Source: Bacilli bacterium
GTDB lineage: Bacteria; Bacillota_I; Bacilli_A; RFN20; CAG-826
Length of the DNA stretch: 64,000 bases
Reading direction: 5' to 3'
NCBI GenBank assembly: GCA_022653695.1
Contig: JALCSW010000002.1
Coordinates: 62,001-126,000, forward strand
The position numbers were made by a program, and so were the translations under genes. Within the stretch, counting starts at the first letter, position 1; each line of letters opens with the position of its first letter. The notes under the pieces were generated by a model. The model was not told the DNA's origin and made no database searches. It saw only the letters and a program-made list of their open reading frames with translations. Positions 3,107 to 14,985 of the stretch are shown here, piece after piece.

Positions 3107-5941
3107 ATGGAAGAAAACGAAGAACAGGGGATTGTGGTGGACGCCGGCGCATCACAAGTTTTCGAACGCACGGAAAAGATGCCGGCATGGATGAGCGTCG
3201 GCGAAGCCCTCATCAATGCCGTTTGGTTTCTCGTCAAATGGGTTTTTGGAGTCGTCGTCGACGTTCTCAAAACCCTATGGAGCGTTATCGCTTGGGTTGG
3301 GAAACTTCTTTATAACGTCGGCAGGTTCATCTATAAACTCGTCAAGGATCTTTGCCACAAGTTCAAATACAACGATTTGGGCGGGCGTTTGAGTTTTATC
3401 ATTTTCGGCGCCTCCAACTATGCCCATGGCCAGATCGTCAACGGGCTCATCCTTTCCCTTTTCGAAGTGGCCTACGTCGTCCTCTTCGCGATGTACGGCG
3501 TCAACTCCATCGGAATGCTAGGATCGTTAGGCACGCAAGCCACTCAAAGCGTGGAGGTTTGTGATGATGAAATTGGCTGCTATAACGTTCTCGTCAGCAA
3601 AGACAACTCCATCCTTATCCTCATCTTTGGCCTCTTGTGGGTTTTCTCTATCATCCTTTTCTTCGTGGCTTGGCGCGCTTCCATCAACGGGGGTTACAAG
3701 AACTATCGCATAACCAATTACCGGAATTATGCAAATCTGTTCGAGAAAGTCGAACCGGAATCGAAGGAAATGGACGATGACATCAACGCCAATCGTCTTT
3801 TCGGTCATAAGTTCAAGGAACTGAAGGAACGCTACGCCTTGGTTTATGCCAATTTCGAGGCGAAAGCCGAAGGGCGCTTCGAGAAGGATTTTGGCGAGTT
3901 CACGCTTGACGAGACGATCCGCCATTGCCTTATGGCCCACAAGGAACTTGAATCAAGCCGAGCCCGTTTGGCGAAGCGCGAGGCCAGAATCGAGAAAATC
4001 GACAAGAACCCCAAATATCTGGAGAAAATCGCCGCCAAGGAAAAAGCCCTTGAGAAAGAGCAGGCCGAACTTGACGCGATGAGCGAGGCTTACTGGGCCC
4101 TTTACGATAAAAGCGAACTTGGGGCTTTGAGCGAAAGCGACATGGCCGCCTTTGAAACGGCCAAGCGGGAACGCCGCTCCCTTCGAAACAAAGTCCTTGT
4201 CGATGGCGATACCCTGATCGCGAAAAAGAAGAGCCATGAGAAAAGGGTTGACAAATTGGACGTGAAACGCCGCCAGTATCGGACCGAAATCGATGACGGG
4301 GAGAAACATTATCTCAACGCGGTCGCCAAACTTCTTGCCGACAATGACAGCAAATACGGCAGTTTCAACAAATTCTATAAGAACGAAAGCGAATACGCCG
4401 TTCGCAAGTCCTTCTACGAGAATTACGAGAGAATCGGCGCTTCCTACGACGAAGGCTATGCCTCTTTCGAGAAAGCCAACGCGGACAATGTTGAGCAAAA
4501 GAAGACGCTCGCCGCCGATTACGCCGACAAATGCGCCAAGATACGCGCCAACTACGCCCAAGTCCGGGCCCATCGGGAAAAAAGCATAACCGAGGCTGGC
4601 ATAAAATACCCCGATTCGCCGAAAACCGTCAAAGCGGTCATCGCCTCCCTTCCGAGCCTGAAGCAGATCGGCGCGATGGAGAAAGAGGAAATCGATAACG
4701 TCACGCACAGCTATAAGCGCGACGCCAAAGCCCTGAAAACCAACTACACGGCGGAAACCTACGCCGAGTTCGCGGCCACTTCCTACATGATCGTCAATTG
4801 CGCCATCCCCTTTGAAGCGGCGCGCGTTCTCGTCAAGGACGTCAAGAGTCGCCTCCAAAAAGGCGAAGCCAGGGAGGAGCTCGATAAACTCAACCGGCAG
4901 AATCAGGCTTATGTGAGCGGCCACCCCGACAAGTTCGACGGGAAGCCAAAAACGTTGAAAGAACAAATCGGGTCCCTTTTGGACGAGAACTTCCACCTGA
5001 CCCTTTTGGCTCTTCCGATCCTAGGCGTCGTTTTCTTCACGGTCATGCCGCTTTTCTTTTCCATTCTTATCGCCTTCACAAACTACAGCAAAGGGCATGA
5101 ACCGATCAGTCAGTTGTTCGGATGGATCGGCCTCGATAATTTCAAAAACCTCTTCTTCCCCGACAGCAACTCGGTTTACGCCTCTTTGGCCGATGATATG
5201 GGAACGGCCCTTGTTTGGACCCTTGTTTGGGCGGTTTTGGCCACCTTCTCCAACTATTATCTCGGCATCCTTTACGCCCTCATGATAAACAAGGAGGGGA
5301 TCCGATTCAAAAAATTCTGGCGCACCATTTTCGTTCTTTCGATCGCGATGCCGCAGTTCATCTCCCTGATCGCCATATCCCTCATCCTTAACAATTCGGG
5401 GCCGTTCGGGAATCTATGGTTCAACACGTTTGGCACCAATTTGAACTTTGGCGATAAAATCGATGGCCGAAACGGGGCCATTGTGACGAAAACCATAATC
5501 ATCCTCGTCAACATTTGGATCGGCGTTCCCTATACGATATTGCAGACGACCGGCATCCTTTTGAACATTCCAAAGGATCTTTACGAGTCGAGCGAAATCG
5601 ACGGAGCCGGCAAGGGTCGTCAGTTCTTCTCGATTACCATGCCCTATATCCGTTTCGTTTTGGGGCCATCCCTCATCACGACCTTCATCGGCAACGTCAA
5701 CAACTTCGGCGTCATTTACTTCCTTACCGGAGGCGGTCCGACGATCACAAACTCGACCCTTGGCTTAGGCCACACCGATTTGCTTATCACCTTCCTTTAC
5801 AAACTCGTGACCAGTTCGAGCAACCCCCAGTATGGAATCGCGTCCACGATTGGCATTGTGGTGTTCGTGATATGCGCGTTCTTCTCGATTATCGTCTATA
5901 ACAAGAGCGACGCGGTTACCAAGGAGGATCAGTTCCAATGA
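3107..5941 (+). CDS. malF: Maltodextrin ABC permease MalF with giant coiled-coil insertion
   Basis: At 944 residues this is about twice the usual MalF length (430-450 in maltodextrin-type permeases). Residues 1-190 hold hydrophobic segments (about 25-60, 110-130 and 168-188), resembling the N-terminal part of Gram-positive MalF/MalC. Residues about 195-625 are a highly charged Lys/Glu/Ala-rich helical region (for example KREARIEKIDKNPKYLEKIA) predicted as long coiled coil in the cytoplasm. Residues about 630-944 are the permease core: HLTLLALPILGVVFFTVMP, then the EAA loop (YESSEIDGAGKGRQFF, about 828-843) that docks the ATPase. It overlaps malG by four bases. The family call is secure; the role of the insertion is unknown. 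It might tether the transporter to other proteins or sense state. Confidence 0.9.
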   Translation: MEENEEQGIVVDAGASQVFERTEKMPAWMSVGEALINAVWFLVKWVFGVVVDVLKTLWSVIAWVGKLLYNVGRFIYKLVKDLCHKFKYNDLGGRLSFIIFGASNYAHGQIVNGLILSLFEVAYVVLFAMYGVNSIGMLGSLGTQATQSVEVCDDEIGCYNVLVSKDNSILILIFGLLWVFSIILFFVAWRASINGGYKNYRITNYRNYANLFEKVEPESKEMDDDINANRLFGHKFKELKERYALVYANFEAKAEGRFEKDFGEFTLDETIRHCLMAHKELESSRARLAKREARIEKIDKNPKYLEKIAAKEKALEKEQAELDAMSEAYWALYDKSELGALSESDMAAFETAKRERRSLRNKVLVDGDTLIAKKKSHEKRVDKLDVKRRQYRTEIDDGEKHYLNAVAKLLADNDSKYGSFNKFYKNESEYAVRKSFYENYERIGASYDEGYASFEKANADNVEQKKTLAADYADKCAKIRANYAQVRAHREKSITEAGIKYPDSPKTVKAVIASLPSLKQIGAMEKEEIDNVTHSYKRDAKALKTNYTAETYAEFAATSYMIVNCAIPFEAARVLVKDVKSRLQKGEAREELDKLNRQNQAYVSGHPDKFDGKPKTLKEQIGSLLDENFHLTLLALPILGVVFFTVMPLFFSILIAFTNYSKGHEPISQLFGWIGLDNFKNLFFPDSNSVYASLADDMGTALVWTLVWAVLATFSNYYLGILYALMINKEGIRFKKFWRTIFVLSIAMPQFISLIAISLILNNSGPFGNLWFNTFGTNLNFGDKIDGRNGAIVTKTIIILVNIWIGVPYTILQTTGILLNIPKDLYESSEIDGAGKGRQFFSITMPYIRFVLGPSLITTFIGNVNNFGVIYFLTGGGPTITNSTLGLGHTDLLITFLYKLVTSSSNPQYGIASTIGIVVFVICAFFSIIVYNKSDAVTKEDQFQ

Positions 5942-6825
5942 AATCCCTAAAAGCCAGGCGAACGGTCCTATTGGCCGTCATTTACGTCATTCTCGGAATT
6001 TCCGCCATCATTTGGGTTTTGCCTATCATTTGGATCGTCTTGCAATCCTTCGCCGGAGACGGTGGGGCTGAGGCTTACTTCATTCCAAAGACGTGGACCC
6101 TCAAGAACTATGCCTATCTCTTCGGCTTCGGTGCCCCCAGCTATGCGCAAACGACCTCCATGAACGGCTTCTTCGTGAAGTGGCTGATGAATACGCTCAT
6201 CGTCGCGTGCTGCTGCTGCGTCATCTCGACGTTCTTCGTCCTTGCGACCGCGTATTCGCTTTCCCGTTTCCGTTTCAAAGGCCGCAACACCCTCATGAAA
6301 CTGAATTTGATCCTCGGCATGTTCCCGGGGTTCCTTGGCATGATCATCCTTTACTGGGTCATGAAGTCGATTTTCCATCTGCAGGGATCCTTTTGGGCTT
6401 TGGTCATCATCTATAGCGCCGGCAGCGGCATGGGCTTCTTTATCTCAAAAGGCTTTTTCGACACCATATCGCGCTCCATCGACGAAGCGGCCATGATCGA
6501 CGGGGCGTCCCGCAGCCAGATTTTCTGGCACATCATTTTGCCGCTGGCCAAACCGATCGTCGTCTATACGATCCTCACTTCCTTCATGGCGCCTTGGGGC
6601 GATTACATCACCTCCAGTTATATCATCGGCCTTCAGAATTCAACGCAGTGGACCGTCGCCATCGGTCTTTACAAATGGGCGACCGAATCAACGACTCTCA
6701 CGCCGACGTATTACACGCAATACGCAGCCGGTTCGGTTATCGTCTCCATTCCGATGATCGCCTTATTCATGGCGACGCAACGCTACTATGTCGGCGGAGT
6801 CACCGGCGGAGCGGTGAAGGGCTAA
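5938..6825 (+). CDS. malG: Maltodextrin ABC permease MalG
   Basis: A 295-residue inner-membrane permease of normal length with six predicted membrane segments, starting with LLAVIYVILGISAIIWVLPI. The EAA loop SIDEAAMIDGASRSQIFW contains Glu183 and the invariant Gly, and contacts the ATPase. MalG pairs with MalF to form the channel for maltodextrins brought by the lipoprotein at 1596. Its ATG overlaps the malF stop (ATGA), so the two are translationally coupled. The amylase gene begins six bases after its stop codon. Confidence 0.95.
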   Translation: MKSLKARRTVLLAVIYVILGISAIIWVLPIIWIVLQSFAGDGGAEAYFIPKTWTLKNYAYLFGFGAPSYAQTTSMNGFFVKWLMNTLIVACCCCVISTFFVLATAYSLSRFRFKGRNTLMKLNLILGMFPGFLGMIILYWVMKSIFHLQGSFWALVIIYSAGSGMGFFISKGFFDTISRSIDEAAMIDGASRSQIFWHIILPLAKPIVVYTILTSFMAPWGDYITSSYIIGLQNSTQWTVAIGLYKWATESTTLTPTYYTQYAAGSVIVSIPMIALFMATQRYYVGGVTGGAVKG

Positions 6826-6831
6826 TCGCCT

Positions 6832-8490
6832 ATGCGCCACTTTCCGCGTTTCGTTAAGCAAACGGGGTTGGCGCTTTTGCTTTGCCTAACCCTTTGTTCC
6901 TGCGCCGGCGCCTCATCGGATCAGGGAAGCGGCTCGTCCCTTTCCTCCTCTTCCGTTCCTCCGGTCAATTTGGAGGAAGGGGACGGAACTTACGACCTCA
7001 AGGAAAACGTCAGCAACGAAGGGGGTTCCCTCTCCTACGAGATCTTCGTCCGCAGCTTTTACGACCACGACGGCGATGGGGTCGGGGATTTCCTCGGCGT
7101 GGCCGATAAAGCCGAGTATTTGAAGAAAATGGGCGTGGGCCAAGTCTGGCTGATGCCGATAAACCCCTCGCCAAGCTACCATGGCTACGACGTAACCGAC
7201 TATTTCGGCGTCAACGGCGATTACGGGAGCCTCGACGATTTCAAAACGATGGTTTCGACCCTTAACGCCTCCGGAATCAAGGTCCTCATCGACATGGTTC
7301 TCAATCACAGCAGCGACGAGAACGATTGGTTCTCGGAGTCCTATTACGACGAATACGGCGGCTACGAGGGCGACGATTCCAAAGCCGATTGGTACTGCTG
7401 GAGCGAAAACTTCAAGACCGGTTACTCCAAATACAAGAACCTTTATTACGAAAGCCGTTTCGACAGTTCGATGCCGGATTTCAATTGGGACTCCGCCGGA
7501 TTCCGAGCCGAGATGAGGAAGATTCTTCTTTATTGGCTTGGGCTTGGGGTAAGCGGATTCCGGCTCGACGCGGTGAAATACTATTATTTCAACCAAACAT
7601 CCAAGAACATCGAGGCCCTTAACTCCATCGTCGACGCGGTGAAAGACGATTATCCAAACGCGTATTTCGTCGGCGAGAATTGGTCGACCGGATCCGAGTA
7701 CACGGATTATTACAAGAGCGAGATCGACAGTTTCTTCTGCTTCCAGAAGTCGGTTACAGGCACCGACGACACCATCGTCTCAGCCGCCAAGAATTTCGTC
7801 TCAGGCGACGATTTCACCGCTTCGATCGAAAGTCTTGAAAAAACGGTGAAGGCCAATAACCATTCGTCGGTGTCGTCTTATTTCCTTTCCAATCACGACC
7901 AGGATCGCGTGAGCAAGAACCTCACCGGATCCTATGCCAAAGCCGGGGCGTCACTGACGTATCTTCTGCCCGGAACGCCATGGTGCTACTATGGCGAGGA
8001 AATCGGGCTCAAGGGCACGCGCCGCACCTCCCCCGACGATCATAGCGACGCCCGACGTCGCCTTCCGATGGTATGGTCCTCAAGCGAGGAGACCGGGGAA
8101 TGCGATTTCCCCGAGAGCGATCGCCCGGACCTCGAGGATAACGATCAAGTCTCCCTAGGGGCCGACGATCTCATCGGTCAACCCATGTCGCTCCTTTCCC
8201 ATTACCGGAAGCTCGCCGAAGTTCGCAATTCCCATATGGACGCTTTCCGCAACGGCGTTTTTTCGGCCATCCCAACCGGCCTAAAGAACATCGTGGCGTA
8301 CCGTCTGACGGGATCCAAGGAATCCATCGTCGTCGTGACCAACAAAACGGACGTCGCGACCGAGCTCGACGTTTCCGGGTATGCCGGAAGCCTGCTCGAG
8401 GAAGTCGACGCCGCGAATCTGAAGCCCTCCTACCAAGGCGGAACCCTTGGCATCGGAGGTTTCAGCACCTGCGTTTTCGCCGCCAAATAA
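6832..8490 (+). CDS. GH13 alpha-amylase-family lipoprotein
   Basis: A 552-residue surface lipoprotein: signal peptide with lipobox LCSC, a Ser-rich linker, then a GH13 barrel. The four conserved regions are visible: DMVLNH (154-159), GFRLDAVKY with nucleophile Asp246, GENWS with acid/base Glu282, and SNHDQDR with His355-Asp356. The start of the barrel, YEIFVRSFYDHDGDGVGDF, is typical of alpha-amylases and neopullulanases acting on alpha-1,4-glucans. It would cut starch or maltodextrins at the cell surface. It lies between malG and a pullulanase gene in the same transcription unit. The exact subfamily and product size cannot be told from motifs alone. Confidence 0.92.
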   Translation: MRHFPRFVKQTGLALLLCLTLCSCAGASSDQGSGSSLSSSSVPPVNLEEGDGTYDLKENVSNEGGSLSYEIFVRSFYDHDGDGVGDFLGVADKAEYLKKMGVGQVWLMPINPSPSYHGYDVTDYFGVNGDYGSLDDFKTMVSTLNASGIKVLIDMVLNHSSDENDWFSESYYDEYGGYEGDDSKADWYCWSENFKTGYSKYKNLYYESRFDSSMPDFNWDSAGFRAEMRKILLYWLGLGVSGFRLDAVKYYYFNQTSKNIEALNSIVDAVKDDYPNAYFVGENWSTGSEYTDYYKSEIDSFFCFQKSVTGTDDTIVSAAKNFVSGDDFTASIESLEKTVKANNHSSVSSYFLSNHDQDRVSKNLTGSYAKAGASLTYLLPGTPWCYYGEEIGLKGTRRTSPDDHSDARRRLPMVWSSSEETGECDFPESDRPDLEDNDQVSLGADDLIGQPMSLLSHYRKLAEVRNSHMDAFRNGVFSAIPTGLKNIVAYRLTGSKESIVVVTNKTDVATELDVSGYAGSLLEEVDAANLKPSYQGGTLGIGGFSTCVFAAK

Positions 8491-8522: not shown

Positions 8523-11210
8523 ATGAAGAAACGTCTATCCGTCTTCGTCGCGGCCGTCGCCGCTTTGGCCTTAGGGGGGTGCGGGAGCGTCAGTTCCAGC
8601 GAAACCTCAAGCCAAGCCAGCGCCAGCTCCCAAGCTTCTTCAAGCCAAGCGAGCAGTTCGGTTTCCTACGCGCCGATCAGCGAGATCGACCCCCCGACTT
8701 ATGAGGAGGAATCCGTTCAGATCCATTACCTGCGGCCGGATGGCAAATACTCGGCCTGGGCCCTATGGATTTGGCCGCAGGGAGGCGACGGATCCCTTTA
8801 TGGGTTCAACGGGCAGGAACAAACCAATGGGGCCATCGCCTCGTATAAACTGAGCGAGTTCGGCGTCAGCGGGACCGGAACGCTCGGCTTCATCGTCCGC
8901 AATTCCGGCGATCCCGCCACGTGGAGCGACAAGGACCCCGACGGCGACCGCTTCGCCAAACTGGCCAATTACCCCGCCGACAGCCATTTGGTCCATCATA
9001 TTTACCTCCGGACGGGCGACAGCAACGTCTATTATTCCCCGGACTACAAAATCCTCGACGCCATCGACAGCGCCTATTTCACGTCTTACTCCAAGCTCTA
9101 TTTCGAGGCCAGCAACAAAATTTCGGCCTACCAGATCCTTAAGGGCGAGGACGTCATCAAGGACGTGACCCTTGCAAGCCCCACCAAGGGGGTCCTCGTT
9201 GGCTTGGACGCGGAGGTCGATCTTTCCTACGACTATCGCGTCAAGGCGACTTTCGCCGAAAGCGGAGAGACGATCACGAAATCCGTCTCGGTCACGAAAC
9301 TTTACGGCACCGACAAATTCGGCGAAGCCTTCACTTACGACGGGAACGATTTGGGCGCCTCCTATTCGGAGAGCAAGACGACCTTCAAGGTCTGGTCCCC
9401 GTTCGCGAGCGCGATCGAGTTAAGGCTTTACGATAACGGCACGCCGACGCGCATAAGCGCCACCAAAGGCAGCGACGTCTACGTCCCCTATCCCATGAGC
9501 AAGGGCGAGAAGGGCGTTTGGGAGGCCGAGGTGAGCGGCGACCAAGCCGGGAAGTATTACACCTATGCCGTCACCAACGGCAACTACCTCGCCAAAGAGA
9601 TCGTCGATCCCTACGCTAAGAGCGCCGGGATCGATGGGCTTCGGGGCATGGTCGTCGACTTCGATGCGACCGATCCCGAGGGATGGGAGGCGGTCAAGCC
9701 GCTTCAAATCGACCGCAAGGGCCTCGTCGTTTACGAAACGCATGTCTGCGACCTTACCTCAAGCCCCACGTGGACAAGCGACGTATCAGCCCGCGCCAAG
9801 GAAAAGACTTTCGAAGGGGCTTATCTTTCAGGCACGACGTTCACGAAGGGCGAAACCACCGTCAAGACCGGCTTCGATCACGTGAAGGAACTCGGGGTGA
9901 ACGCGGTGGAACTCCTTCCGATTTTCGATCAGGCCAACGATGAGGTCAATCCGTCTTTCAACTGGGGTTACAACCCCCTTAACTACAACGTCCTTGAGGG
10001 GTCCTACTCCAGCGACCCTTACGACGGATACGCCCGCGTCAGGGAGTTCAAAGCCCTTGTCAAGGCCTATCACGACGGGGGTATGAACATCATCATGGAC
10101 GTCGTCTACAATCACGTCAACGGCGCCAGCGGCAGCAATTGGGACGTCCTCGTCCCCGGCTATTTCTACCGTTACGAGGACGACGGGAGCCTTTATAACG
10201 GCAGCGGATGCGGCAACGAGGTGGCCTCCGAGCTTCCGATGGTCCACAAGTTTATCCTCGATTCGACCGCTTTCTGGGCTCATGAATACAAATTGGGCGG
10301 CTTCCGTTTCGACCTCATGGCCCTGATCGACATGAAGACCATGAACGCGGTGGCGGACTCCCTCCACGCCAGCAATCCCGACTGCGTCGTTTACGGGGAG
10401 CCGTGGACCGGCGGGGATTCCGGCCTTGCGGGGAAGGAGCAAACGAGTCAGGCCAACATCACGAGTTGGGGCGACTACGGCGGCTTCAACGATCAGATGC
10501 GCGATGCCCTCATCGCCGGCGGCCTTAACAGCAAAGAGAGCAAAGCCTGGGTGACCGACACCGCTTCCGGCAAACCGACGGAGAAAATCCTCGGCGGCAT
10601 CCGCGGGCAAACCCTCGCGGGCAAAAACATGCTTGACCCCAACAAGACGGTCAACTACGCGAGTTGCCACGACAACTACACCCTTTACGACCGCGTTTCC
10701 GCCGCCGGGATCACCGACCAGACGGCCCTTCATTTCATGCCGGTTCTCGCCAATTCGGTGGTCTTGACCTCCAGCGGCACGAGTTTCATGCTCGCGGGCG
10801 AGGAGATGCTCCGCACCAAAGGCGGCAACAGCAACAGCTACAATGCCTCTTACGAGGTCAACGCCCTCGATTATTCGCGGAAAGCCGATTACCCCGACGT
10901 CTTCGAGTCCTATCGGAAGCTCGTCGCTTTTAAGACGGGGGTCGATGGCCTTCGCCTCGAGAAGGCGGGGACCCTCTCCAGTGCCTTTCCGATCGAGGTG
11001 AGCGCTTTGGGCAACCAGATTTCCTACGAGGTCAAGGACACGGCGAACTCAAAGACCTATCGAGTCGTGCACAATAACGGTTACGGCGATCTTCCGACGA
11101 TGGATTTGAGCGGCTTCTCAGTCTATCTCGACACGCGGGGAGCCCACTCGGGCGCCCTTGATAGCGGCACCTCGTTTCTGCCTTTCGAAACCCTCATAGC
11201 CGTTAAGTGA
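8523..11210 (+). CDS. pulA: Type I pullulanase lipoprotein (GH13 with CBM41)
   Basis: An 895-residue lipid-anchored debranching enzyme. Order: signal peptide with lipobox LGGC, a Ser/Gln/Ala repeat linker (about 22-50), a CBM41/PUD starch-binding module (IHYLRPDGKYSAWALWIWP), a CBM48-like domain (TTFKVWSPFASAIELRLYD), then the GH13 barrel. The pullulanase signature FNWGYNPLNYNV is present, with YNHVN, GFRFDLM (nucleophile Asp597), YGEPW (Glu626) and SCHDNYTLYD (Asp717). It would hydrolyse alpha-1,6 branches of starch, glycogen or pullulan outside the cell. A perfect AAAGGAGG lies before ATG 8523. It is the last gene of the malF unit and a terminator follows. Confidence 0.94.
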   Translation: MKKRLSVFVAAVAALALGGCGSVSSSETSSQASASSQASSSQASSSVSYAPISEIDPPTYEEESVQIHYLRPDGKYSAWALWIWPQGGDGSLYGFNGQEQTNGAIASYKLSEFGVSGTGTLGFIVRNSGDPATWSDKDPDGDRFAKLANYPADSHLVHHIYLRTGDSNVYYSPDYKILDAIDSAYFTSYSKLYFEASNKISAYQILKGEDVIKDVTLASPTKGVLVGLDAEVDLSYDYRVKATFAESGETITKSVSVTKLYGTDKFGEAFTYDGNDLGASYSESKTTFKVWSPFASAIELRLYDNGTPTRISATKGSDVYVPYPMSKGEKGVWEAEVSGDQAGKYYTYAVTNGNYLAKEIVDPYAKSAGIDGLRGMVVDFDATDPEGWEAVKPLQIDRKGLVVYETHVCDLTSSPTWTSDVSARAKEKTFEGAYLSGTTFTKGETTVKTGFDHVKELGVNAVELLPIFDQANDEVNPSFNWGYNPLNYNVLEGSYSSDPYDGYARVREFKALVKAYHDGGMNIIMDVVYNHVNGASGSNWDVLVPGYFYRYEDDGSLYNGSGCGNEVASELPMVHKFILDSTAFWAHEYKLGGFRFDLMALIDMKTMNAVADSLHASNPDCVVYGEPWTGGDSGLAGKEQTSQANITSWGDYGGFNDQMRDALIAGGLNSKESKAWVTDTASGKPTEKILGGIRGQTLAGKNMLDPNKTVNYASCHDNYTLYDRVSAAGITDQTALHFMPVLANSVVLTSSGTSFMLAGEEMLRTKGGNSNSYNASYEVNALDYSRKADYPDVFESYRKLVAFKTGVDGLRLEKAGTLSSAFPIEVSALGNQISYEVKDTANSKTYRVVHNNGYGDLPTMDLSGFSVYLDTRGAHSGALDSGTSFLPFETLIAVK

Positions 11211-11288: not shown

Positions 11289-11510
11289 ATGCCTCGCGTC
11301 AAGGACAAACGAACGATCGACGATCTTCAGCATGACGTCGAATTGCCTCAGGAAGAGCCGCGCGAAGAAAAAATCGCTCCTGAGGAAAAGAAAAGGCGGG
11401 ACCGCCACTACACGGTCCTTTACCTCGTCATCGCCGTTTTGGTCTTCGGCCTCGGTTTGCTCGTCATCGCCCTCATCAATTTAGGCGTCGACGGACGCTT
11501 CTACATTTAG
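11289..11510 (+). CDS. Small single-span membrane protein, unknown function
   Basis: A 73-residue protein with a charged N-terminal half (Lys/Arg/Glu, residues 1-42) and one membrane segment near the C-terminus (LYLVIAVLVFGLGLLVIALI), ending GVDGRFYI. I do not recognise the family. The predicted topology puts the charged part in the cytoplasm. It has its own -10 box immediately upstream and no ribosome-binding site. Its stop overlaps the end of the convergent reverse-strand gene by four bases. The clear promoter, hydrophobic segment and lack of a competing ORF support a real gene, but it could be spurious. Confidence 0.55.
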   Translation: MPRVKDKRTIDDLQHDVELPQEEPREEKIAPEEKKRRDRHYTVLYLVIAVLVFGLGLLVIALINLGVDGRFYI

Positions 11511-12574
11511 CCTTCGGGACCGTCTTTCGTCTTTTCCGTTCGCGAAAGCAAATCGATGTAATCCTCATCCTCGTAGGAGGCGAGGGCCCGCCGCTCCGCG
11601 TCCTCTTTTTCGATTTCGTCTTTGTAAATCCGCGATGTTCTTGCGTCGAAAGAGGCGATGCCGAGGATTTTGTCCGGAATGCTTTGGTTGTCCTTCCCGA
11701 AAAGAAGGCAAAGCGCGTTGAAGAATAGAGGCATGACCCACAGCAAGGCCACCGAGTAGGCATTGAGCCAATAGGCGCCCAAGAGGCAGGGGGCGCCAAA
11801 AAGCAGGCAACGGAGCGGAAGCTTCCAGCGGCGGAGGCGGAAAAGGCTCTTGTCGGCGTACCCGAGGCGAAGGATTTTTTCGCCCACCGGGGCGTTTTCC
11901 TTGTTTAACGAAGGGAAGACGAGCTCGATCAGAAGGAAGGCCACCCCGATCGAGGCCAATCGCGAGAGGCCCTCGCATTGGCGGATGAGGCTGAGGGCGG
12001 ATCCGTATTCTGAGGAGGTTTCCTCAAGAAGCGAAGGCAATCCGCCATAGGCGGTGCGATAGATGTCGGCCAGGTTGCTTAGTCCCGTCGGGTTGAGGGA
12101 ATCGGCCTTGACGAGGGCCTTGACGTCGACGTTCACGGTGCCGTCCTCGTTAAGGACGTAGGCGAAGAAATCAGTCGAATAATCCGTCAAGGAAGGTTTT
12201 GAAGGGAGCCCGCACACGTTCACGTTATAGAGATAGGCGATCGAACTGTAGGGGACGCTCACCTGAGCGTCGTAGAAATCGAGGATCTCGGCTGGGAAAT
12301 CGTCGAAATAGAAAGATTCGACGGGGGTCTGGTATTCCTTGTAGGAGAGATTGTCGGGGAGGTTAAGATCGTATTCCTCCATCTTTTGCGCTCGCAGGCT
12401 CATGGCATCGGCGTATGGGGTCGCGTTCATGCTCGGGTAGCACACCCCAAAATAAAAGATGAGGGCGAGAGCGGCTATGGAAAAGGCGTTGATGAAGCTC
12501 GAAAGAAGCCCCTTTGAGAGCATGGGTCGTTCCGCGGCCCTATTCACGCACGAGTTCCGGGTGCCTTTCCTCAT
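11507..12574 (-). CDS. RDD-like membrane protein with large extracellular loop (second of pair)
   Basis: Up to 355 residues. One hydrophobic segment near the N-terminus (SIAALALIFYFGVCYPS) is followed by an extracellular stretch of about 170 residues. Then come three hydrophobic segments with RDD-like landmarks (VGEKILRLGYADKS; IPDKILGIASFDART) and a charged cytoplasmic tail. It looks like a divergent paralogue of the gene just upstream on the same strand. The start is uncertain: ATG at 12574 has GAGGAGAAGGA ahead of it but overlaps the upstream gene by 35 bases; ATG at 12523 gives an N-terminus more like the paralogue. RDD proteins are poorly defined, some being linked to ion transport; no function is assigned. 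Confidence 0.72.
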   Translation of the reverse strand: MRKGTRNSCVNRAAERPMLSKGLLSSFINAFSIAALALIFYFGVCYPSMNATPYADAMSLRAQKMEEYDLNLPDNLSYKEYQTPVESFYFDDFPAEILDFYDAQVSVPYSSIAYLYNVNVCGLPSKPSLTDYSTDFFAYVLNEDGTVNVDVKALVKADSLNPTGLSNLADIYRTAYGGLPSLLEETSSEYGSALSLIRQCEGLSRLASIGVAFLLIELVFPSLNKENAPVGEKILRLGYADKSLFRLRRWKLPLRCLLFGAPCLLGAYWLNAYSVALLWVMPLFFNALCLLFGKDNQSIPDKILGIASFDARTSRIYKDEIEKEDAERRALASYEDEDYIDLLSRTEKTKDGPEG

Positions 12575-13553
12575 AATCCTTCTCCTCGGCGCGGTCGAGG
12601 AACCAAAGCGACGTTTTCTCGTCGGCCACGACCGAATTGGCCAGATAATCGTGCAGGGCGCGGTGCTTTTTCGTGAATTGGCACATCGTGTAGGAGATGA
12701 GGAAGGTGGCGCCGAACGAGGCGAGGCCCCCTCCGATCTCGACGATGATGTAAACCAAAAAACGCGGCAGGAGCCATATTCTCTTGAGTTCGTAGCCGTC
12801 TTTGTCGAGGACGACGAGGCGGGTGACCCATTTGCCGACCGTTTTGCCGTTCCGCGAGAAGAGCGGGATCAGGAACTCGAAGAGAAATCCTGCCCCGAAA
12901 AGGGTCGGGATCGCCCACAAAACGGCGTTTCGCATCAGAGTCGCGTTCTCACGTTCGAGCGAAGCGACCGCCGCGGAACCGCCGACGGCCCCTTCGGCGG
13001 CGTCATAGGCCTCGAGGAAAAAGTCGATCGCCTTCCTCCTGACCTCATAATCTTTTTCCGCGAGCCCGATCTCGTAGGTGTCCGTGGGCGGATCGGCGAG
13101 GAAGGAACCGATTCCGCTGACGTCGTCGTCAACCCTAAGGATCGTCGATTCAAAGGCCGATCGGGTCATCACGGGGATATCGAAATCCGCGCATTTGCCG
13201 GTATAAAACAGATAGAGGTTTTTGACAAGCGAGAAAGTGTATTCCTTCGTTCCGTCGGAAACGGTTACCCTATTGAGCTTGGCGAGGGTGTCGTAAGAGA
13301 AAGCCTCGTCCCCATCCTTGCTGATCGCCGTCGGGTCTTGGAGGTCGCCACCCGCCTCAAGGTAGAGGCCGCTGCTAAGATATTCGGCCTTGAGCGCGTT
13401 TTGGTTGGCGACGTATTGGTCCCCGTCGAACGCATTGGGGTAAACCGCGGCGAAGAAAACGAGGCAAAACGACCCGGCGGTCAAAAGAAAATCGATGAGG
13501 CCGCTTCCGATGCGGGTCCAAATCGAGGGGAGGACGATGCGCTTCATGCCCAT
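12540..13553 (-). CDS. RDD family membrane protein with large extracellular loop (first of pair)
   Basis: A 337-residue membrane protein. A first span (SGLIDFLLTAGSFCLVFF) is followed by about 160 extracellular residues, a second span, and the RDD core with GKTVGKWVTRLVVLDKDG, LLPRFLVYIIVEIGGG and KKHRALHDYLANSVV. The RDD core is clear, but the long loop between spans one and two is much longer than in ordinary RDD proteins of 150-200 residues. A -10 box (TAGAAT) lies seven bases before the start, so the message may be leaderless. The downstream gene is a paralogue. The pair lies inside the starch locus on the opposite strand; a link to glycan uptake is only positional. Confidence 0.8.
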   Translation of the reverse strand: MGMKRIVLPSIWTRIGSGLIDFLLTAGSFCLVFFAAVYPNAFDGDQYVANQNALKAEYLSSGLYLEAGGDLQDPTAISKDGDEAFSYDTLAKLNRVTVSDGTKEYTFSLVKNLYLFYTGKCADFDIPVMTRSAFESTILRVDDDVSGIGSFLADPPTDTYEIGLAEKDYEVRRKAIDFFLEAYDAAEGAVGGSAAVASLERENATLMRNAVLWAIPTLFGAGFLFEFLIPLFSRNGKTVGKWVTRLVVLDKDGYELKRIWLLPRFLVYIIVEIGGGLASFGATFLISYTMCQFTKKHRALHDYLANSVVADEKTSLWFLDRAEEKDYEERHPELVRE

Positions 13554-13738: not shown

Positions 13739-13803
13739 GAGGCGAAAGAAAACCATAGGCAAGGACCCTTCAGGAGCCCTTCTTCGTGGAAAAGGAGTCA
13801 GCA

Positions 13804-14985
<1,182 letters not shown>

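Follow-up and report, generated by a model that had tools for sequence, protein, structure and literature searches.

The malF gene and its cytoplasmic insert

The window analysed here, a stretch of 64,000 nucleotides from a genome of the Bacilli (GenBank assembly GCA_022653695.1, contig JALCSW010000002.1, positions 62,001 to 126,000 of the forward strand), carries a malF gene of unusual length (3107-5941, + strand) that encodes a permease subunit of an ATP-binding cassette (ABC) importer. A first-pass annotation of this DNA had described an uninterrupted frame of 944 codons, and the gene is indeed a single open frame without an internal stop, encoding 944 residues. Assignment of the long form to MalF is supported by a BPD_transp_1 domain (PF00528) at residues 719-931, which scored 59.5 bits against a cut-off of 26.4, and by its best solved relative in sequence, MalF of the Escherichia coli MalFGK2 importer (PDB 2r6g, 3puy, and 9bcr), with which it shares the permease core, the EAA loop, and the kinds of operon partners. 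The top Foldseek matches of the predicted model were also E. coli MalF chains (E 8e-14, from a model of modest confidence with a predicted template modelling score, pTM, of 0.40). The NCBIfam equivalog model for E. coli MalF (NF008232) was matched at 148.6 bits, below its cut-off of 392, so that, taken strictly, the protein falls outside the E. coli type of MalF.

The N-terminal part of the protein (residues 1-194; 3107-3688, +) was delimited by hydropathy, AlphaFold2 helices, and conserved columns common to short MalFs. It consists of an extended helix (residues 28-88) followed by the first two transmembrane spans, TM1 (about 110-133) and TM2 (about 168-194), both of which are common to other MalFs as judged by conserved columns and hydropathy. 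Residues 31-88 (3197-3370) form a long, moderately hydrophobic helix ahead of TM1 in the long MalFs that could lie along the membrane or be an extra span. From TM3 onward (residues 613-944; 4943-5938, +), a complete permease core was recognized from the domain match, solved relatives, and a core tree, in agreement with the first-pass annotation. Its EAA loop is intact at residues 827-846 (ESSEIDGAGKGRQFFSITMP), where it aligns to E. coli MalF. Relative to the published consensus EAAX3GX9IXLP (PMC5730181), S stands in place of A at two positions and M in place of L.

Between these two parts lies an insert of 418 residues in the loop that joins TM2 to TM3 (residues 195-612; 3689-4942, +), delimited by loop lengths, helix prediction, and purifying selection. 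The same loop is 12-13 residues long in all 28 short MalFs measured in one alignment. Of these, 20 belong to the window's order, and the other 8, all with 13 residues, come from Bacillota outside it. In E. coli MalF the TM2-TM3 loop is short and a large periplasmic loop follows TM3. The window's protein, by contrast, has the large TM2-TM3 insert and only a short stretch after TM3: the span ends at about residues 656-660 and the next long helix begins at 690, leaving about 30-35 residues between them by hydropathy and AlphaFold2, and no large periplasmic loop of the E. coli kind is present. Maltodextrin-type MalFs of about 440-530 residues (Leuconostoc, Enterococcus, Lachnospiraceae, and Ruminococcus; L040-L077) have the same span layout, and 23 aligned MalFs of other Bacillota are 35-44% identical to the window's protein. 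A second MalF encoded in the same genome (G000:C1:164817, L115, 453 residues), with a core 41% identical to that of the window's protein, likewise has a 13-residue loop. On the inside, the flanks of TM1 and TM2 have 4 basic against 2 acidic residues and 3 against none, and the segment between the spans has 1 against 5; the stretch ahead of TM3 is charge-neutral (4 against 4). The charges around TM1 and TM2, together with the match to the MalF layout, fit a cytoplasmic position of the insert, as had been proposed.

The structure of the insert was predicted for the window's protein in two AlphaFold2 runs, one of full-length MalF (26 sequences, predicted local distance difference test score, pLDDT, 66.6, pTM 0.40) and one of the insert alone (3 sequences, pLDDT 70.8, pTM 0.36). 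Both predicted an almost wholly helical insert, the longest helices being 343-416 and 440-500 with pLDDT mostly 75-90. By model and composition, a first coil-like arm spans residues 257-416 (3875-4354, +; helices 257-299, 302-337, and 343-416) and a second spans residues 425-500 (4379-4606, +; helix 440-500), and heptad periodicity of the insert exceeds that of shuffled sequences (z = 3.6). The remaining, membrane-near part (residues 501-612; 4607-4942, +), delimited by the conservation profile and AlphaFold2, differs in having short helices and more Pro and Gly and is among the better conserved parts of the insert within its group (group A, below). The insert is thus not a coiled coil along its whole length; of the first-pass description, the long helical insert stands, with its bounds at residues 195-612, and the coiled coil throughout does not. 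Between the two arms lies a seven-residue motif, YGSFNKF (residues 417-423; 4355-4375, +), which the models place between the two long predicted helices in a poorly resolved stretch (pLDDT below 50 at 408-425 in the full-length run and at 416-424 in the insert run). Helix breaks were predicted at 417 and 439 in the full-length run and at 439 alone in the insert run, such that the two runs agree on helix and differ on where, between 417 and 439, the chain turns.

Searches with the insert alone, as the first-pass annotation had suggested, yielded no Pfam family at E 0.01 for the window's sequence, and over five inserts two families, each matching one member (E 0.007-0.008). Neither Pfam nor a search of the PDB by fold thus gave a convincing known domain. 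Among PDB sequences, the insert profile matched 4iyp at E 0.024. A profile of the tip around the motif matched 3nua, a SAICAR synthetase, at E 5.7e-4 over a helical stretch of 41 residues that ends with the letters YN; this was taken as chance, though the E-value is not trivial. Within the collection and wording searched, the literature showed no account of a coiled-coil insert in MalF.

Long MalF relatives and their conserved motif

A total of 37 distinct MalFs of more than 700 residues with the same layout were gathered from independent assemblies. Their sources were 61 genomes (the window's own and 60 relatives), 279 genomes of the order, a scan of genome contigs, and fetched regions; one duplicate was dropped. 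Three of the proteins are cut by contig ends, and the complete ones range from 820 to 1514 residues. In a tree of the permease core with 70 rows, 36 long MalFs make up one side of a branch with support of 100/98. Because the long MalFs form one clade on the core, they fit a single ancestral in-frame insertion, and a single gain is the simplest reading of the tree. Confidence in the anatomy of the insert and in the single origin of the long MalFs is high.

In the samples examined, long MalFs are confined to a single order of uncultured Bacilli. Of 395 genomes sampled across the class, with at most five candidates scored per genome, 102 matched the MalF core at E 1e-55 or better. MalF frames of more than 900 residues were present in 15 of these 102, all belonging to the window's order, and the longest frame among the 58 matching genomes of other orders was 698 residues. 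A sample of the phylum (392 genomes, overlapping the class sample) gave the same distribution. Within the order, a profile of group-A inserts matched 22 of 279 genomes (E 0.001), representing 8 of 56 genera. Among records that carry a name, 'Bacilli bacterium' UW_MP_BACIL4_1 (95% identical) and 'Bacillales bacterium' SUG340 (about 40%) come closest. Of the 29 matches to the profile, 27 were in MalF-length frames and the other two (G122 and G123), in proteins that we take to be RqcH-like, matched only as coils. The coil was accordingly never met as a separate gene with the group-A profile in these genomes, the group-B profile not having been searched.

The motif can be written as [YF]-[DGE]-[KRS]-[YF]-N-x-[YFI], a pattern found in all 37 long MalFs (twice in that of G092), and in none of 20 short MalFs. 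Among 525 other frames from the same loci, each 250 residues or longer and some of them spurious, it occurs once, in an unrelated frame in L099. When the inserts were shuffled, the pattern occurred in 0.06 of 37 on average and in at most 2. Beyond what the pattern demands, position 3 is Lys in 31 of the 37 and the residue following the motif is Tyr in 24. A further long MalF that is not among the 37 (G117, a 930-residue frame) also bears the motif; the second MalF of the window's genome does not, nor was the motif found in the enlarged MsmX proteins described below. Insert length and sequence around the motif vary widely: leaving out the truncated G035, 97-283 residues precede it (676 in G092) and 108-349 follow it. 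In group A, the motif stretch is well conserved, with a mean BLOSUM score of 2.51. Omega for the insert was 0.065-0.248 in all eight pairs of relatives compared, some of which share a member. These values exceed those of the core in 8 of 8 pairs, yet they are well below 1, and the insert is under purifying selection.

Two main groups of inserts can be told apart, A with 21 proteins, including that of the window, and B with 14; G042 and G092 each stand alone. In five group-A inserts, heptad periodicity reached z 2.8-4.7. BLAST with the five group-A inserts first examined gave no match to any other group. In hhalign, where each E-value is for a single comparison, group A against group B gave E 0.018 and 0.053 over the inserts and 0.0026 around the motif, which is too weak to treat the two as one alignable domain. 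The argument for homology of the two groups is made instead by the tree, the motif, the shared place of insertion, and G092. The MalF of G092 (L176:7078-11619; 1514 residues) is extended by about 980 residues in the TM2-TM3 loop. It links groups A and B: its motif resembles that of group B, and its insert was matched by the group-A profile with a probability of 93.8 and E 1.8e-7 in a single comparison to which coil composition may contribute.

Other permeases of the sampled loci are enlarged elsewhere. In two more distant permeases (L098:8049-10799 in G048, 917 residues; L099:8164-10059 in G038, 632 residues), a charged, coil-like stretch lies ahead of the first clear hydrophobic span and is therefore N-terminal, not in the loop. 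Seven MalFs of 575-617 residues (L106-L112, from G029, G019, G005, G002, G030, G035, and G004) combine a loop of 12-13 residues with a long N-terminal part that in most of them has extra hydrophobic segments.

Operon neighbours and the MsmX ATPase

The long malF is preceded by a gene for the solute-binding protein of the importer (1575-2912, +; SBP_bac_8, E 1e-21), in which a lipoprotein signal was recognized by eye, and overlaps by 4 bases malG (5938-6825, +; BPD_transp_1; NCBIfam MalG at 136.7 bits, below the cut-off of 261). The MalG C-terminus reads ...GGAVKG; a MalG tail, -GVKG, is described as inserting along the MalK dimer (PMC5730181). Downstream are genes for a GH13 amylase-type protein (6832-8490, +; Alpha-amylase, E 1.9e-72), which adjoins malG in many relatives, and a type I pullulanase (8523-11210, +; TIGR02104, 543.9 bits, over the cut-off of 504.5), both with a lipoprotein signal by eye. 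These two neighbours suggest that the importer may transport maltodextrin. An MsmX-type ATPase of 399 residues follows (13786-14985, +). Between the pullulanase gene and msmX, two overlapping frames with hydrophobic stretches recognized by eye (11507-12574 and 12540-13553, - strand) run counter to the operon. In relatives, the long malF is accompanied in a similar order by genes for a binding protein and MalG, and often by an amylase gene.

The first-pass annotation had noted an extra N-terminus on MsmX, which is present at about 39 residues, and had proposed it as a possible partner of the insert. Across the 14 long-MalF operons with an adjoining msmX (13 relatives and the window), however, with start codons as predicted, both the length and the sequence of this extension vary, and the MsmX of G089 has almost none of it (MENENKGYVSL..., 364 residues). 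An extension so poorly conserved is probably not the partner. Apart from it, MsmX is plain (364-433 residues) in 14 of 14 of these operons, nearly all of them group A, and enlarged (about 558-1007 residues, by C-terminal additions or an internal coil) in 10 of 12 short-MalF operons with an adjoining msmX. The latter were L100-L105, L113-L116, L118, and L119, compared with L080, L081, L160-L167, L171, L172, L174, and the window. It should be noted that 6 of the 10 enlarged proteins form one related set and that the 10 are not independent cases. The MsmX beside the second MalF of the window's genome (L115) has 577 residues with an added C-terminus, and in G092 a plain MsmX is encoded about 6 kb from the long malF. 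In the group-B genomes examined, no msmX was found beside the long malF in the stretches fetched. In six of them with an unsplit best MsmX match, the match covers only about the first 300 residues of frames of 451-524 residues, so that these ATPases look altered too; the group-B genomes do not fit the pairing of a long MalF with a plain MsmX cleanly. Other MsmX-type ATPases of the window's genome (G000:C1:479942-481492, L122; C1:494585-495700, L125; C1:111750-112994, L121; C2:249044-250129, L120) have additions in the form of inserts of about 120-160 residues near residue 140, a charged N-terminus of 171 residues, or a C-terminus of about 264 residues.

Possible roles of the insert

The long MalF is a genuine variant, kept by selection, of a transporter already known, and for its extra part the following role is proposed. 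The insert would be an arm whose tip, the motif, is held off the membrane, roughly as deep in the cytoplasm as the ATPase dimer or deeper, where the tip would dock a cytoplasmic partner such as a regulator or a glucan enzyme. Such docking could couple maltodextrin import to metabolism inside the cell, or place it nearby. The arms change quickly and the short central motif stays, suggesting that the arm is the holder and the tip the working part, and this favours docking of a cytoplasmic partner, which is put forward as a tentative preference with somewhat less than an even chance of being right. GreA and Rad50 have coiled-coil arms with conserved tips. The combination of variable arms and a conserved tip would be analogous, but the insert model matched no PDB fold at E 0.001 or better. 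A narrower proposal, that the tip, here [YF]-x-K-[YF]-N-x-[YF], is a built-in sensor or dock for a cytoplasmic glucan, a sugar phosphate, or a glucan enzyme, through which it gates or places the importer, would have no described precedent among ABC importers and is considered improbable.

Several observations weigh against docking by a conserved tip. First, the pattern was written after the sequences had been inspected, and its presence in 37 of 37 proteins, the Asn, and the aromatic residues are therefore descriptive, the remaining figures serving as controls. A short motif alone is also not diagnostic: the tip profile weakly matched proteins in other orders (G578, E 7e-4; G359, E 8e-4), which we take to be of cation-efflux type and RecO type, and these matches, although both have the motif by eye, were taken as chance and not as relatives. 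Second, conservation is not limited to the tip, in that membrane-near parts in group A are also conserved (BLOSUM 3.29 at 192-206 and 2.1-2.2 at 522-551). In close pairs, where the 35 codons around the motif have few changes each, omega for these codons was lower than for the insert as a whole in 5 of 8 pairs but higher in the other 3. Third, the geometry is uncertain, given that the two AlphaFold2 models disagree on the site of the turn in the helix, which may be the motif itself or a point about 15 residues further on; the variable distances on either side of the motif argue against a fixed ruler, and co-variation of arm lengths, considered as proof of a hairpin, was not clear in the data. 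Fourth, profile similarity between groups A and B is no better than to unrelated coils, and group-B inserts have more Pro and Gly with heptad z from 0.8 to 4.2 (-0.5 in G042). Instead of a binding site, the motif may form the core around which a small bundle packs.

The alternative that fares best is a regulatory finger, in which the arm folds back so that the tip touches the MsmX dimer, at its regulatory domain or nucleotide site, and damps or licenses ATP hydrolysis much as EIIA-Glc acts on MalK in E. coli. EIIA-Glc controls E. coli MalFGK2 by binding MalK (PMC10710835); control would likewise be cytoplasmic, but there a separate protein binds MalK and here the extra part is built into MalF. 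Helices of 61-74 residues, as predicted, would measure about 9-11 nm, near the depth of a MalK dimer. The occurrence of plain MsmX with long MalFs and of enlarged MsmX with short ones would also suit a finger, as if extra cytoplasmic mass sat on either one subunit or the other. This pattern is confounded by the shared ancestry of the enlarged proteins, the ATPases of group B, which look altered too, speak against it, and the long-MalF operons of that group are without msmX in the stretches fetched; arm length varies as well. A finger of this kind is regarded as unlikely, though it deserves more credence than the alternatives below.

The arms might otherwise serve clustering: coiled-coil pairing between adjacent importers would bring transporters together in patches or at one membrane site. 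The coil-like composition and the heptad periodicity of group A are in keeping with this, and E. coli ProP is described as pairing via a cytoplasmic coiled coil (PMC10710835), a possible analogy even though ProP is not an ABC permease and its coil is C-terminal. Pairing would be expected to conserve the arms, however, and it is the arms that diverge and the motif that stays; clustering is therefore rated quite unlikely. Less probable still is that the insert is ballast, tolerated without a job of its own. Its widely varying size and sequence, an omega above that of the core in every pair, and the short MalFs that do without it could be read in this way, but purifying selection in all pairs (with the shared members noted), the occurrence of the insert in 8 of the order's 56 genera, counting only what the group-A profile matched, and the conserved motif make it very doubtful. 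That an assembly error joined two genes, as the first-pass annotation had cautioned, is next to inconceivable, given that 37 distinct proteins share the layout, almost every one from a genome of its own, and that the group-A profile met no separate-gene form in 279 genomes.

Among ABC importers the maltose importer is a textbook case, and its best known control acts on the ATPase subunit. If the tip of the long MalFs were a built-in sensor or dock, control would lie with the permease subunit instead of the ATPase. For a bacterial group known here from metagenome-assembled genomes alone, a clade of permeases that share a conserved cytoplasmic arm, and in it a motif of seven residues, offers a defined, testable part through which import may be linked to metabolism.

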